From Saprospiraceae bacterium (GTDB lineage Bacteria; Bacteroidota; Bacteroidia; Chitinophagales; Saprospiraceae), in the NCBI GenBank assembly GCA_030729925.1, contig JANQWK010000012.1, forward strand, positions 63,552 to 127,551: a stretch of DNA of 64,000 nt, in the 5' to 3' direction. How positions within the stretch are numbered: the first letter of the stretch is position 1; every line of letters begins with the position of its first letter. The notes under the pieces are model-generated. The model did no database searches. It worked only from the letters and a program-made list of their open reading frames with translations, and was not told the origin of the DNA. Shown here in pieces: positions 35,981 to 56,653 of the stretch. The translations under genes and the position numbers were made by a program.

Positions 35981-36868
35981 TTAGGTATGGACGGCGGGGC
36001 TTAATTGGGTTTGCACCCATTCCTGAAGTGCGGGCAACAAAAACCCCGCCTCTTTAGCCCAGTTGAAATGGTCAATTTTTGCATGCGGCAGCATCGCCTG
36101 GGTATAGTGGAGGTGCACCACGTCCGACGCCGGGCCGTATTTCAAAGCAAGGTGTTCGGCTGCTTTGGGGGGAGCATAAAAATCCCCGGCCAGTGAAATG
36201 CTCAGGATCGGTTTTTCGGTGCGCAGCATCGCGCTCTCGTAGGACTTTCTGGCACCGCGGGGCTGGTAGTTGCCCGACCTCACGGTATCCGACCAGTCCA
36301 TCATCAGGGTTTTGCCCTGCCTGCCGGCAAAACCGAGGAGTTGCCCGGGAAAGTACCCAAACAATCGGCAGGTCAGCGGAAACACCAGCGAAGCAAACAC
36401 AATTTTGAGGCGCTCCACTCCCGACCAGTTGCGGTACCAAGGCGTACCCGCTCCGATATGGATCAGGCCATTGATCTTTTCCCGGCCTTTGGCCACGTAG
36501 ATCATGCTCAGTTGGGCACCCAGACTGTGTCCCAACAAAAAGATGGGATGCTCGGGAAACCGTTGCCGGATGGCTTCGAAAACGACCGGATAGTCTTTGG
36601 TCAGGACAGTCTCATACCCAAAATCCACGCCGCGCTTGGGACGGACAGACGAACTCCCCGTGCCCCGATGATCGAAACGAGCCGTGTGAAAACCCGACGA
36701 GCAGAGGGTCTGCGCCAGCGGTTCGTAGTACGAAGCCCGCACCCCCAAGGCCGGAAAAATCAGGATCACAGGCGCGTCTGCCTGTTCAGCCTCGCAGACC
36801 TGCAGCTCGAAACGGTGCCCGTCGGCGGTTTTAAGCGGGATACAGACAGAATTTTGCATGGATGCCAT
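35981..36868 (-). CDS. Alpha/beta hydrolase
   Basis: 295 residues. The fold is shown by LIFPALGVRASYYEPLAQTL, ARFDHRGTGSS and the nucleophile elbow LLGHSLGAQLS (Ser in GHSLG). A late Asp (SLAGDFYAPPKAAE) and His (KIDHFNW) complete a plausible triad. No signal peptide; cytoplasmic. Substrate cannot be assigned. It is divergent from the aromatic operon leader. Confidence 0.82.
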   Translation of the reverse strand: MASMQNSVCIPLKTADGHRFELQVCEAEQADAPVILIFPALGVRASYYEPLAQTLCSSGFHTARFDHRGTGSSSVRPKRGVDFGYETVLTKDYPVVFEAIRQRFPEHPIFLLGHSLGAQLSMIYVAKGREKINGLIHIGAGTPWYRNWSGVERLKIVFASLVFPLTCRLFGYFPGQLLGFAGRQGKTLMMDWSDTVRSGNYQPRGARKSYESAMLRTEKPILSISLAGDFYAPPKAAEHLALKYGPASDVVHLHYTQAMLPHAKIDHFNWAKEAGFLLPALQEWVQTQLSPAVHT

Positions 36869-36886
36869 AAAATTTACCGGTGAATA

Positions 36887-36917
36887 TTGTTTGACACAAA
36901 ATTAATCTTTACGTTTG
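36887..36917 (+). promoter_or_regulatory. Promoter of the aromatic amino-acid operon
   Basis: TTG (36887-36889), 20-base spacer, TACGTTTG (36910-36917) match the Bacteroidota consensus. Transcription would start near 36924, about 17 bases before the leader peptide. Confidence 0.65.
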
Positions 36918-36940
36918 TAATATCTTAAAACAAGATCAAT

Positions 36941-37003
36941 ATGTTGACAAGTGCACATCTTTATTCCTTCTATTTTAGCTTTTACTTTTATGGCCAACCA
37001 TAA
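36941..37003 (+). CDS. Phe/Tyr-rich leader peptide
   Basis: A 20-codon open frame, ATG at 36941 and TAA at 37001-37003. Residues 8-17 read YSFYFSFYFY: four Tyr and four Phe in ten codons. This composition, its position just after a promoter, and the pheA, aminotransferase, tyrA and DAHP synthase genes downstream identify it as an attenuation leader sensing charged tRNA-Phe and tRNA-Tyr, as in the pheL and trpL systems of Proteobacteria. No Trp codon is present, in line with the absence of trp genes from the operon. The peptide itself probably has no role beyond translation. Confidence 0.85.
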   Translation: MLTSAHLYSFYFSFYFYGQP

Positions 37004-37076
37004 AGGGTCGCTGATTTTTGGAATGCAGATGAAAAAATAAATTGGTGGCCCGGATTCGTTCGGGCCATTTTCGTTT
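36992..37076 (+). promoter_or_regulatory. Proximal attenuator switch
   Basis: Three segments compete. Segment 1, GGCCAACCA (36992-37000), the last leader codons, can pair with segment 2, TGGTGGCC (37043-37050), with one bulge. Segment 2 also forms part of GGCCCG (37047-37052), which pairs with segment 3, CGGGCC (37061-37066), followed by ATTTTCGTTT. A ribosome finishing the leader would cover segment 1 and allow the 2:3 terminator-like hairpin; stalling at the first Phe/Tyr codons would free segment 1. Mechanism inferred. Confidence 0.6.
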
Positions 37077-37156
37077 ATAACCGACAGTTTTTATGCTACC
37101 TGACCAAATTAACATCCAATACAGCTTTTTTTATTGCTTTTATTTTTACGAATAAA

Positions 37157-37219
37157 GGGACTTTTTGTTTGTGCTTGCAGCAAAAAAAAGTCCCGGTAGT
37201 TTACTGGGACTTTTTTTTT
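37157..37219 (+). terminator. Distal intrinsic terminator with competing strand upstream of pheA
   Basis: A8-GTCCC (37182-37194) pairs with GGGAC-T8 (37206-37218), and the stem continues inward to a three-base loop, an almost ideal intrinsic terminator 15 bases before the pheA start. A copy of the downstream arm, GGGACTTTTTG (37157-37167), lies 14 bases upstream of CAAAAAAAAGTCCC and can pair with it instead, giving a mutually exclusive antiterminator. Confidence 0.85.
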
Positions 37220-37233
37220 AAATCCTTACAATC

Positions 37234-38130
37234 ATGCATACAGAAAACGAATCCGCGGCGCTCGAACTCGAAATTTTATCGGATCATCCGATAAGAGTCG
37301 CTATTCAGGGCTTTGAAGGAGCCTTTCACGAGATTGCCGCCAGACATTTTTTTGCCCCACGGGCGGTACAGGTAGTACCCTGCGAGACCTTCGAAGACTT
37401 GGTCAGCGCCGTAGAAAGCGGAACCAGCGCAGATGTTGGCATTATGGCCATCGAAAATACCCTGGCAGGGAGCCTGATGGGCAATTACCAGCTTCTCAAT
37501 AAAAGCAGTGTGCGGATTAGCGGAGAGGTGTTTTTACGGGTGAAGCAAAATCTGATGGCACTGCCCGGTACCAGCATCGCCGATCTCAGAGAGGTGTATT
37601 CCCACCCGATCGCGATTGCACAGTGCACCGCGTTTTTTAGGAACTATCCCCACATCAAATTGATTGAAGGACTGGACACGGCATTGAGTGCCCGCGATGT
37701 GCGGGACAGTGGGGATCGCCACAGGGGAGCCATAGCGAGCGAACTGGCAGCCGGGTTGTACGGACTCGATATGCTGGCTCCCGGTATTGAAACGAATAAA
37801 AAGAACCATACCCGATTTTTGATCCTGGAACAACACCTGCCGATCGTTCCGCCACATGCCGAAAAGGAAAAAATTTCCTTGAGTTTTTCGGTGGATCACG
37901 AGATCGGGAGCTTGTACCAGGTGCTGGGCGTGCTGGCAGCTTATCAGGTCAACCTGACCAAAATACAGTCCACGCCGATTATCGGAAAGCCCTGGGAGTA
38001 TATGTTTTTTGTGGATTTTCTGGTGGAGGGCAAGTTTTCTTCGAACCAGGCCATTGATGCCATCCTGCCGCTGACACACGATTTGAAAGTGCTCGGGACT
38101 TACCCCGAGGGCAGACATTTTGATCACTGA
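37234..38130 (+). CDS. pheA: Prephenate dehydratase with ACT domain
   Basis: 298 residues. Converts prephenate to phenylpyruvate, the committed step of phenylalanine synthesis. Catalytic domain 18-200 with GFEGAFHEIAARHFF, GIMAIENTLAGS, SHPIAIAQC and the essential Thr in NHTRFLIL. The C-terminal ACT domain (about 212-290, ISLSFSVDHEIGSLYQVL) binds phenylalanine for feedback control; the usual ESRP motif is replaced by QSTP. There is no fused chorismate mutase, which is supplied by the DAHP synthase fusion downstream. First structural gene behind the leader attenuator. Confidence 0.95.
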   Translation: MHTENESAALELEILSDHPIRVAIQGFEGAFHEIAARHFFAPRAVQVVPCETFEDLVSAVESGTSADVGIMAIENTLAGSLMGNYQLLNKSSVRISGEVFLRVKQNLMALPGTSIADLREVYSHPIAIAQCTAFFRNYPHIKLIEGLDTALSARDVRDSGDRHRGAIASELAAGLYGLDMLAPGIETNKKNHTRFLILEQHLPIVPPHAEKEKISLSFSVDHEIGSLYQVLGVLAAYQVNLTKIQSTPIIGKPWEYMFFVDFLVEGKFSSNQAIDAILPLTHDLKVLGTYPEGRHFDH

Positions 38131-38148: not shown

Positions 38149-39339
38149 ATGGATGCAGTGCAACAGCAAGTTCCGGTTATTCAACCCGCAAGTCGCTTCG
38201 GGGATGTGGCCGAGTATTATTTTTCCCGAAAACTGAGGGAGATCGCCCAAATGCAGCAGGAGGGCAAACAGGTGCTGAACCTGGGCATCGGCAGCCCCGA
38301 TTTGCCACCGGCTCCGGCAGTGATCGAAACCCTAAATGCCCATAGCCTTCGAGCCGATACGCATGCTTATCAGAGCTATTCGGGTATCCCGGAACTGCGG
38401 AAGGCCTTTGCAGATTGGTATCGCCAATGGATGCAGGTAGAACTCGACCCGCAGTCAGAGGTGCTTCCCCTGATGGGCTCGAAAGAGGGCATCATGCACA
38501 TTTCCATGACTTATCTGGAACCGGGCGACCAGGTGCTGGTGCCGGATCCGGGCTACCCCGCTTATGCTGCCGTGGGCAAACTTACCGGGGCCGAGGTGGT
38601 GACTTATACCCTGAAGGAGTCCTTGGGTTGGCAGGCTGACCTGGAGGAGCTGTCCCAACGGGATTTGAGTCGGGTGAAAATCATGTGGCTGAACTACCCC
38701 AACATGCCTACAGGCGCACAGGCCGACAGCAAGTACTTCGAACGGTTGGTTGCCTTGGCGCAACAACATCAGTTTTTGCTGGTCAACGACAACCCCTATA
38801 CTTTTATCCTCAACGATCAGCCACAAAGTATCTTGTCGGTGCCCGGAGCAAAAGCGGTGGCACTCGAACTCAATTCGCTGAGCAAGGCACACAACATGGC
38901 TGGCTGGCGCATCGGGATGGTCGCGGGAGCTTCCGCCTACCTGCAACAAATCCTGCGCTTCAAGAGCAATATGGATTCGGGAATGTTTAAGCCCATGCAA
39001 CTGGCTGCCGTTCAGGCACTCGGACAGCCCGCTTCCTGGTACGACTCCCTGAACGCGGTGTATCGGGAACGGAGGGTACTGGCAGAGGACATCCTTCGGA
39101 GTTTGGGTTGTAGTTTTGACCCGGCTCAGGTGGGGATGTTTGTGTGGGCAAAAACCCCGGATCGCTACCCGTCGGGTTACGAGCTGACCGATCAGGTGCT
39201 GGAAACCGCTCATGTGTTCCTGACACCGGGGGGGATTTTTGGCGAAGCCGGCAAACCGTATGTGCGGATTTCGCTGTGCAGTGATGTCAGTGTACTGAAG
39301 GAGGCAAAAGATCGCATTGAAAAAATGATTACCCCATGA
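38149..39339 (+). CDS. Class I/II PLP aminotransferase of the aromatic operon
   Basis: 396 residues, fold-type I. Landmarks are NLGIGSPDLPPAP, GSKEGIMHISMTYLEPGDQVLVPDPGYPAY, LVNDNPYTFI, the PLP-binding lysine in LNSLSKAHNMAGWRIG, and the C-terminal Arg region YVRISLCS. Its place between pheA and tyrA suggests transamination of phenylpyruvate and 4-hydroxyphenylpyruvate, or of prephenate. LL-diaminopimelate aminotransferase-like enzymes look similar, so the exact substrate is an inference. Its TGA overlaps the tyrA ATG (ATGA). Confidence 0.88.
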   Translation: MDAVQQQVPVIQPASRFGDVAEYYFSRKLREIAQMQQEGKQVLNLGIGSPDLPPAPAVIETLNAHSLRADTHAYQSYSGIPELRKAFADWYRQWMQVELDPQSEVLPLMGSKEGIMHISMTYLEPGDQVLVPDPGYPAYAAVGKLTGAEVVTYTLKESLGWQADLEELSQRDLSRVKIMWLNYPNMPTGAQADSKYFERLVALAQQHQFLLVNDNPYTFILNDQPQSILSVPGAKAVALELNSLSKAHNMAGWRIGMVAGASAYLQQILRFKSNMDSGMFKPMQLAAVQALGQPASWYDSLNAVYRERRVLAEDILRSLGCSFDPAQVGMFVWAKTPDRYPSGYELTDQVLETAHVFLTPGGIFGEAGKPYVRISLCSDVSVLKEAKDRIEKMITP

Positions 39340-40178
39340 ATATATGTATCGTTGGCGTGGGACTGATTGGAGGCTCCCTGGCCATTACCCTGAAAGAGAA
39401 TAAGTTTGCTTCCCATGTCATCGGCGTGGATGCGAGTCAGGAAAACCTGGACAAAGCCATTCGTCGAAGACTGATAGACGAGGATTTGCCCCTGGAGGCA
39501 GCGATCGGGCGGTCCGACCTGATCATCCTCTCCACCCCTGTGGACATCATGATAGGGTTGTTGCCCCGTATCCTGGACCAGGTATCTGGTCATCAGGTCG
39601 TGATGGATGTAGGTTCCACCAAAAAACGCCTGCTGGACAGTGTAGCAGACCATCCCATGCGGCATCGGTTTGTCTCCACCCACCCCATGGCAGGCACCGA
39701 GTATTCCGGGCCGGAGGCTGCCATCCCCAATTTGTTTGACCGAAAGTACACGGTTTTTTGCGAAGCAGAAAAAAGTGACCCGGAGGCGGTGGAGTTGGTC
39801 AGATCGCTGTATGCTTCTATCCCGATGCAAATGGCGTTTTTGGATGCTACCGCACACGATGTACACACAGCCTATGTATCGCATATCTCCCATATCAGTT
39901 CTTTTGCGCTTGCGCTGACCGTCCTGGAGAAGGAAAAAGACGAATCCAGGATATTTGAACTGGCCAGCAGCGGATTTAGCTCGACTGTCCGCCTGGCTAA
40001 AAGTTCGGCTGATATGTGGATTCCGATCTTCCGGCAAAACCGCGACAATGTTCTGGATGTTCTCGATGAGCACATCAACCAGCTCTCGCGGTTCAGGAGT
40101 TTGCTGATCAAACAGGATTTTGAAACTTTTTACCAGCTCATCAAGGAGGCAAACACCATCAAGCGGATGCTTTCTTGA
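39336..40178 (+). CDS. tyrA: Prephenate dehydrogenase
   Basis: 280 residues. NAD(P)-binding motif IVGVGLIGGSLA (4-15), then DVGSTKKRLLD and the catalytic His region THPMAGTEYSGPEAA, AHDVHTAYVSHISH. It oxidatively decarboxylates prephenate to 4-hydroxyphenylpyruvate for tyrosine. No ACT domain, so tyrosine feedback may rest on the leader and on the DAHP synthase fusion. Translation is coupled to the aminotransferase by a four-base overlap. Confidence 0.94.
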   Translation: MNICIVGVGLIGGSLAITLKENKFASHVIGVDASQENLDKAIRRRLIDEDLPLEAAIGRSDLIILSTPVDIMIGLLPRILDQVSGHQVVMDVGSTKKRLLDSVADHPMRHRFVSTHPMAGTEYSGPEAAIPNLFDRKYTVFCEAEKSDPEAVELVRSLYASIPMQMAFLDATAHDVHTAYVSHISHISSFALALTVLEKEKDESRIFELASSGFSSTVRLAKSSADMWIPIFRQNRDNVLDVLDEHINQLSRFRSLLIKQDFETFYQLIKEANTIKRMLS

Positions 40179-40230: not shown

Positions 40231-41307
40231 ATGGAAATGACATTCAAGTCCATTCTGGACACACCCAAATCGCACATCATCATTGCGGGGCCTTGCGCGG
40301 CGGAGTCCGAGGAGCAGGTGCTAAAAACAGCCAGAGACCTGGCTGCACTCGGAAACGTTGATTTGTTCCGGGCAGGGATCTGGAAACCCCGCACCCGACC
40401 CAATTCTTTTGAAGGGGTGGGCATTATCGGTTTGCCCTGGCTGAAAAAGGTCAAAGAAGAGACCGGCCTGAAAACGACCACCGAGGTGGCCAAAAGAGAC
40501 CACGTATTTGAGGCCCTGAAGTATGGCATTGATGTGCTGTGGCTGGGCGCCCGTACTACCGTGAATCCGTTTTCGGTACAAGAGGTAGCGGATGCCCTGC
40601 AAGGCGTGGATATCCCGGTGATGATCAAGAACCCGATCAATACCGATCTGAGTTTGTGGATCGGAGCGATCGAGCGGGTGTACAAGGCGGGCATTACCCG
40701 CGTTGCGGCCATCCACCGCGGTTTTTCCGTGCACGGAGACAACAAATACCGCAACACGCCCCGCTGGCAAATTCCTATCGAACTGAAGCGTTTGTTCCCG
40801 GATCTGCAGATCATCTGCGACAACAGCCATATCTGTGGCCGCCGCGATACCCTGCTGGAAGTGGCTCAAAACGCCATGGACTTGGATTTTGACGGGATCA
40901 TGACCGAAACGCACCCCGATCCGGACAATGCCTGGAGCGATGCGAAACAACAAATTACCCCCTTGCAGTTTGGCGACTTGTACAACAGCCTGCAATTCAG
41001 AAAGCGCACGACTGACGATGCCGCTTACAAAGACAGCATTGATCACCTCCGGCATGAAATTGACGAAATTGACGAAGAACTGCTCAACCTGCTGGGTCGC
41101 CGCATGAACCTTGCCCAGGAGATCGGCAGGTTTAAAAAGATGAACAATATCGCTATCTTGCAGTCTTCCAGGTGGAATGAAATCTTGGAAAAATCCGTTA
41201 AAAAAGGAAGCGCAGTGGGCTTGAGTGCAGAATTTGTGGAGAGTGTCCTGAAGTCCATCCACGAAGAATCCATCGGTCACCAGGAAAGAATCATGCGCCA
41301 GGGATAA
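40231..41307 (+). CDS. Bifunctional DAHP synthase-chorismate mutase
   Basis: 358 residues. Residues 1-255 form a KDO8P-like (type I-beta) 3-deoxy-7-phosphoheptulonate synthase with IIAGPCAAESEEQVL, FRAGIWKPRTRPNSFEG, the WLGARTTVNPF loop and DNSHICGRRD. Residues 270-355 form an AroQ-type chorismate mutase (HLRHEIDEIDEELLNLLGRR, FKKMNNIAI, ESIGHQERIM). Porphyromonas gingivalis has the same fusion order, in which the mutase domain mediates prephenate inhibition (family knowledge). It thus holds both the first reaction of the shikimate pathway and the branch-point reaction feeding pheA and tyrA. Confidence 0.94.
   Translation: MEMTFKSILDTPKSHIIIAGPCAAESEEQVLKTARDLAALGNVDLFRAGIWKPRTRPNSFEGVGIIGLPWLKKVKEETGLKTTTEVAKRDHVFEALKYGIDVLWLGARTTVNPFSVQEVADALQGVDIPVMIKNPINTDLSLWIGAIERVYKAGITRVAAIHRGFSVHGDNKYRNTPRWQIPIELKRLFPDLQIICDNSHICGRRDTLLEVAQNAMDLDFDGIMTETHPDPDNAWSDAKQQITPLQFGDLYNSLQFRKRTTDDAAYKDSIDHLRHEIDEIDEELLNLLGRRMNLAQEIGRFKKMNNIAILQSSRWNEILEKSVKKGSAVGLSAEFVESVLKSIHEESIGHQERIMRQG

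Positions 41308-56580: not shown

Positions 56581-56653
<73 letters not shown>

Follow-up and report, generated by a model that had tools for sequence, protein, structure and literature searches.

Two putative Phe/Tyr leader-peptide attenuators in series upstream of the pheA operon of a Saprospiraceae bacterium

How is an operon for aromatic amino acid synthesis controlled in a bacterium of the Saprospiraceae, and does its leader read the amino acids that the operon makes? The question was addressed in a window of 64,000 nucleotides (contig JANQWK010000012.1, positions 63,552 to 127,551), which is the whole stretch of DNA analysed and gives the numbering used here. Four genes on the + strand follow the leader: pheA, encoding a prephenate dehydratase with an ACT domain (37234..38130; PF00800, PF01842), a class I/II aminotransferase gene (38149..39339; PF00155), tyrA, encoding a prephenate dehydrogenase (39336..40178; NF006307 above its cut-off, PF02153 and PF20463), and a gene for a DAHP synthase fused to chorismate mutase (40231..41307; PF00793, PF01817). 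These Pfam and NF006307 matches bore out the operon as given in the original prediction, which had been made from the DNA letters. Between the -7 box (36910-36917) and pheA (37234), the + strand leader contained two units of one design, and the amino acids counted in both, Phe and Tyr, are the products of the genes 3' of them. It is highly probable that the pheA-aminotransferase-tyrA-DAHP synthase operon is gated by two ribosome-mediated transcription attenuators that follow one another on a single transcript.

A scan of the window, tiled on both strands for short frames with at least six Phe/Tyr/Trp per 10 codons and a terminator within 110 nt, returned two units only, at 36941-37069 and, adjacent to it, at 37093-37218. 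The region 36890-37250 had no match in a plasmid collection. The neighbour 5' of the leader is an alpha/beta hydrolase gene (35981..36868, - strand; ORF list and Pfam), and because it is divergent, the pheA transcript, rather than that of the upstream gene, is the most likely target of the terminators of the two units.

The first unit opens with leader ORF 1 (36941..37003, + strand), which encodes MLTSAHLYSFYFSFYFYGQP before its stop codon and has corresponding frames in relatives; it agrees with the predicted 20-codon frame with eight Phe/Tyr codons at residues 8-17. The last Phe/Tyr codons are paired across the stop codon in a hairpin, named 1:2 (36985..37006; 36985-36993 with 36998-37006), with a fold of -9.1 kcal/mol and with covariation and wobble coupling described below. 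Region 2 of the antiterminator (37005..37015), directly 3' of the stop codon, forms a duplex of -15.6 kcal/mol with region 3 (37041..37051), a pairing that permutation and swap tests also favoured, and region 3 overlaps the left arm of intrinsic terminator 1 (3:4, 37044..37069, tail TTCGTTTAT), where the GC-rich hairpin with a T-rich tail had indeed been expected. A simple terminator scan of 36850-37260 gave two matches, this one on the + strand and its - strand counterpart, where shuffles averaged 0.3, and the leader RNA 36920-37085 folded far below its shuffles (z -4.38). The antiterminator itself had to be revised: the pairing of 36992-37000 with 37043-37050 first proposed is possible (-12.9 kcal/mol), but that of 37005-37015 with 37041-37051 is stronger, and in the congener L002 the former drops to -6.3 while the latter reaches -17.3 kcal/mol, so that it was replaced.

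A second unit, which the original prediction had missed, stands between terminator 1 and pheA. Its leader ORF 2 (37093..37155, + strand) encodes MLPDQINIQYSFFYCFYFYE before the stop codon, around which a weak 1:2 hairpin (37137..37158) folds at -5.0 kcal/mol. Region 2 (37157..37172, beginning GGGACTTTTTG) pairs at -17.9 kcal/mol with region 3 (37180..37194), which overlaps the left arm of intrinsic terminator 2 (37182..37218), a structure ending 15 bases before the pheA start codon. This terminator was seen only by a script that lets the T run join the stem, whereas the simple scan lists terminator 1 only. The RNA of the second unit folded moderately below shuffles (z -2.71). In both units an intrinsic terminator lies between the leader frame and the first gene, and eight of the 10 codons in the densest run are of the Phe/Tyr type, their translation being predicted.

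Upstream of the first unit, a putative promoter (36886..36917, + strand) comprises a TTG-type -33 region near 36886-36893 (approximate) and the box TACGTTTG at 36910-36917, a -7 box of the Bacteroidota type. The "consensus promoter" first reported therefore holds for the Bacteroidota consensus but not for that of E. coli, since a scan of 36850-37260 for E. coli-type promoters found none on the + strand. The motif TAnnTTTG was present within 90 nt 5' of the first leader in 72/101 loci as against 8% of shuffles, which supports a promoter in this position in relatives as in the window. Before the second copy it occurred in one of 32 loci, and this difference between the two places suggests that a single transcript probably carries both units, one behind the other.

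In the mechanism that we propose, a ribosome would translate the short Phe/Tyr-packed frame of each unit while trailing RNA polymerase. If charged tRNA-Phe or tRNA-Tyr were scarce, it would stall in the run and mask region 1, the 5' strand of the hairpin around the stop codon; region 2 would then be free to pair with region 3, the terminator's left arm, and the polymerase would continue. If both charged tRNAs were plentiful, the ribosome would come to the stop codon and cover region 2, its footprint extending as far as about 12 nt beyond that codon, so that the terminator could form. The switch would thus probably turn the genes on if either Phe or Tyr ran short, and both gates would have to be passed before the polymerase reached pheA, so that the two units would multiply their effects.

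A simple ribosome model of 133 units assumed a footprint reaching 12 nt beyond the A-site codon and scored the pairing of region 3 before region 4 exists; the 12 nt figure is that given for a ribosome at the stop codon in the available text of its source (PMC4833913). The mean probability of upstream pairing by region 3 was 0.96 when the A site lay 13-15 codons ahead of the stop, 0.85 at eight codons, 0.72 at four codons and 0.23 at the stop itself, a modelled curve that has the shape of an attenuation switch. With the ribosome at the stop codon, region 3 of the first window unit stayed paired at 0.88, with no clean release, and that of the second at 0.37. Without a ribosome, most units were predicted to form 2:3 (mean 0.79), unlike the textbook case, the values for the window being 0.31 for the first unit and 1.0 for the second. 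In the equilibrium fold the terminator prevailed on average wherever the ribosome stood (mean 0.73-0.94), and antitermination would for this reason have to be kinetic.

Covariation supports the two helices, which would be mutually exclusive: the stop-codon hairpin (1:2) and the pairing of the post-stop stretch with the left arm of the terminator (2:3), the latter being a candidate antiterminator on computational grounds. For 2:3, the mean energy of a leader's own arms was -11.0 kcal/mol against -7.85 for permuted ones (z -17), and in tandem loci the own arms beat those swapped between the two units in 29/32 cases (Wilcoxon 3e-6) and in 23/26 with one locus per genus. The corresponding values for the 1:2 hairpin were -9.58 and -7.33 kcal/mol, with the own arms better in 31/32 loci and in 25/26 by genus; the genus labels for both collapses were transcribed by hand from tables. 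Since the swap compares two units inside one genome, it removes base composition; the genomes are still related, and for that reason the P values overstate independence.

The 1:2 helix was also followed in an alignment of 47 leaders (45 distinct) picked by their peptide ending. The cells of the paired positions were complementary in 93.3% of cases compared with 88.2% in shuffles, and double changes were found in six of nine pairs, against 3.1 in shuffles, with 2/500 shuffles reaching six. When the partner was slid along, pairing dropped to 43-68%. The commonest double change, U-A to C-G (11 sequences), links the wobble base of a Tyr/Phe codon with the one in the last codon: among [FY]GxP leaders the Tyr/Phe and the Pro codon had matching wobble bases in 34/34 (29 T:A, five C:G, none mixed), and among all 79 leaders with TAN or TTN at that place there were 39 T:A, 18 C:G, four T:G, two C:A and 16 with other bases. 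This coupling accounts, through RNA structure, for the recurrent YGxP-stop ending. A search of 100 genomes of the family with the stop-codon hairpin pattern listed 50 matches in 30 genomes, in 15 of which the pheA leader was matched; over whole genomes a reversed-pattern control matched at least as often (55 on the forward strand alone), so that the pattern is not enriched genome-wide.

Comparison of relatives recovered the frames, their codon bias, the terminators and the position of the predicted promoter, besides the covariation of both helices. The main set consisted of 125 pheA upstream regions; as control, 123 regions were dinucleotide-shuffled 20 times each, giving 2460 shuffles. With the threshold of six aromatic codons in 10, which was chosen after the first loci had been seen, an aromatic-rich frame was present in 116/125 loci and 111/2460 shuffles, and a frame together with a terminator in 101/125 loci and 1/2460 shuffles. 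The unit was incomplete in 24/125 loci, nine of them with no detected leader. Three loci from other families of the order, which had no Phe/Tyr frame (L013, L017 and L019), were excluded from the 125; L104-L106 are duplicates of L051, L071 and L072; and L031 and L099, with fewer than 150 bases upstream, were scored as misses. Also scored as misses were L049 and L057, where a terminator accompanied a short frame less rich in aromatic codons (about MKNSFFVNFIFICIYEPS in L049, by eye).

Within the window's own family, for which 100 of the 104 matches were examined (all but G055, G102, G142 and G155), the 101 pheA loci comprised 93 with a leader, 83 with frame and terminator, and 32 with two units. 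Conservation in relatives had been named as one of the checks that could refute the idea, and the prediction of a Phe/Tyr leader-peptide attenuator of an aromatic operon came through it, as the frames were kept and compensatory changes were found in the stems.

Outside the family, 258 genomes matched, among which 30 listed loci (25 new to the set) and 40 picked ones, one to three per family, were examined, so that the coverage of the phylum is a sample and not a census. A leader was found in 23/24 of the closest loci and in 10/40 of the further ones (30/40 without). Its presence in the 64 outside-family loci followed the type of PheA, judged from sequence: 32/39 loci whose PheA has the motif (I/V/L)(A/S/T)IQG in its starting segment had a leader, as against 1/25 without the motif. 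Named relatives were represented by the best 80 of at least 586 matches, 75 of which had enough upstream sequence; a leader was present in 67 of these, a unit in 59 and two units in six, and the genera with a leader included Phaeodactylibacter, Neolewinella, Portibacter, Parabacteroides, Bacteroides, Chitinophaga, Filimonas and Dysgonomonas. Taken with the family loci, these sequence data indicate that the attenuator is not peculiar to the source genome and is frequent in Bacteroidota.

Two Chitinophaga loci, L236 and L249, carried two units each outside the window's family, and the duplication may accordingly be older or recurrent. A leader was also present in five genomes outside the class and inside the phylum (L108, L111, L117, L132 and L137), although L138, L143, L151 and L152, members of three families of those carriers, had none; horizontal transfer of pheA with its attenuator is a possible origin of the out-of-class leaders. 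Two contigs from MAGs, titled Lentisphaerae and Planctomycetaceae (L189 and L219), encoded a PheA resembling closely that of the Bacteroidota query; L219 also had a terminator and a frame rich in aromatic codons, and L189 had neither. These would be either misassigned bins or cases of transfer.

The codon content of the 133 leaders (2673 residues) amounted to 23.6% Phe, 16.8% Tyr and 1.5% Trp. Both Phe and Tyr were found in 133/133 leaders and at least two of each in 131/133. Trp, present in 36/133 leaders, was considered as a third general signal and is unsupported at this frequency. A different specialisation of the two copies was likewise dropped, the Phe:Tyr ratios of 1.51 in first and 1.24 in second copies being too alike for such a claim. 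The first copy often ended in a SFYFYGxP-like sequence.

That ending might be read as a sign that the leader peptides act as proteins, or through nascent-peptide arrest, instead of through codon-dependent stalling. We regard this as very improbable, because the peptides vary widely while the density of Phe/Tyr and the RNA pairings persist, and because the RNA hairpin explains the YGxP ending, its wobble bases covarying with the protein unchanged. More remote still is the idea of ordinary terminators or processing sites at the hairpins, with frames that arose by chance in T-rich DNA. The region is T-rich, and a leader-like frame did appear in 111/2460 shuffles; the combination of frame and terminator separates the real loci from the shuffles (101/125 against 1/2460), and an ordinary terminator would fit neither the covariation of the helices nor an upstream neighbour encoded on the other strand. 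A T-box or a riboswitch, with a tRNA- or metabolite-binding RNA in control and the frames incidental, would share the antiterminator/terminator architecture, but no such family was matched in Rfam at the gathering score and the conserved sensor part consists of aromatic codon runs, which leaves it with scarcely any probability.

A less distant alternative, which we nevertheless judge unlikely, is that a single unit is functional, whether the one next to pheA or the first, and that the other is a decaying duplicate. It would suit the weak stop-codon hairpin of the second window unit (-5.0 kcal/mol), the poor pairing of some second copies (-2.2 kcal/mol in L012, -1.1 in L050 and -2.2 in L073) and relatives such as L008 and L043, in which a full unit occupied the upstream place only. 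Decay is harder to reconcile with two window units that both have full frames, terminators and strong 2:3 pairings (-15.6 and -17.9 kcal/mol), with own arms that beat swapped ones in 29/32 tandem loci, and with the retention of two units in 32/101 family loci. Two attenuators acting in series remain the reading that we prefer.

The kind of regulation is classical. In enterobacteria, pheL and pheM consist of a Phe-rich leader peptide, alternative hairpins and an intrinsic terminator before pheA or pheST, and pheL senses Phe alone through a single unit. The leaders thrL, ilvL and ilvB read more than one amino acid, and in this, one leader for several amino acids, those of the window resemble them. 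The two units of the mgtCBR leader read different signals. A literature search in which subscription journals were thinly covered found no Phe/Tyr dual leaders and no tandem same-signal leader attenuators. Earlier predictions for Bacteroidetes may also be given in the comparative survey of Lopatovskaya and others (2010). The enterobacterial Phe leader (RF01859) follows the same logic as the window units, which differ from it in their alternation of Phe and Tyr, in having the stop codon within the 1:2 hairpin and in their arrangement as two units in series; against the Rfam model Phe_leader they scored 26.7 and 21.8 bits, below its gathering score of 55. Searched with Rfam 15 at gathering scores, the whole window contained only a distant tRNA gene (56581-56653) and no T-box or riboswitch.

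The Salmonella mgtCBR leader is tandem too, with two short ORFs in one leader that are expected to control transcription into the operon according to the available part of PMC3641672, but in the window both units carry the same Phe/Tyr run. The nearest prior art is in the Flavobacteriaceae, of the same phylum: the accessible text of PMC9723704 describes structured 5' elements before pheA and hisG, the pheA element being from Flavobacterium psychrophilum, present in other genera and without an Rfam hit, and it reports strong indications that amino acid operons are preceded by attenuators of the leader-peptide type. The statement that no RNA family had been named for such leaders in Bacteroidota accordingly stands as regards Rfam matches at the gathering score, and gives way to that published pheA element as regards a structured RNA; the general idea is anticipated there, and the anatomy, codon content, covariation, tandem units and spread beyond the Flavobacteriaceae are, in relation to the part of that paper available, given here. 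Bacteroid-trp (RF01692), which takes its name from trp and is listed in the portion seen of PMC2864571 as a predicted cis-regulatory RNA of Bacteroidetes, was not among the Rfam matches in the leader region. Short leader-peptide-like frames in long 5' UTRs are reported for Bacteroides thetaiotaomicron in PMC7366714, as available, with pheA absent from its main text; the accessible text of PMC8632094 describes a uORF motif that codes for Phe, lies ahead of aroF and has hosts that include Acholeplasma; and for Actinobacteria PMC1262725, in the section available, states that no such structures were found for Phe or Tyr operons. Against this background the tandem same-signal arrangement, the dual codon run, the breadth and the anatomy look new.

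A wider proposal, which we hold tentatively and with somewhat less than even confidence, is that these leaders form a phylum-level family of aromatic attenuators, in which one codon run would respond to Phe or Tyr and in which Saprospiraceae-like bacteria have stacked gates for the same signal; readthrough would then be the product of two responses and give a sharper switch than a single attenuator, and AACCA near the start codon would perhaps be part of the coupling. Such breadth, if true, would imply close ribosome-polymerase coupling on these leaders throughout Bacteroidota. As attenuation needs a ribosome that keeps pace with RNA polymerase, conservation from Saprospiraceae to Bacteroides makes this coupling directly testable. 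With the tandem units one could also ask, in a natural setting, if a response becomes sharper when it passes two identical gates in succession. The leaders provide a concrete candidate regulator of aromatic amino acid synthesis in many Bacteroidota.

The motif AACCA stood no more than 30 nt from the start codon in 23/32 second copies and 6/32 first copies of the tandem loci (19% and 7% in shuffles), and in the window at 37093-37110; in L012 it precedes the start codon, so that it may be conserved as nucleotides.

Elsewhere in the source genome (L252), a His-rich frame, MFNNHPYHFHHHHAHSCMPVADL followed by its stop codon, and a terminator were found before hisG, by sequence a probable His attenuator, and leader attenuation is therefore probably not a single case in this genome. 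About 13 bases 5' of the start of the His-rich frame lies a tRNA-Phe(GAA) gene of like orientation, with which the frame is perhaps co-transcribed.
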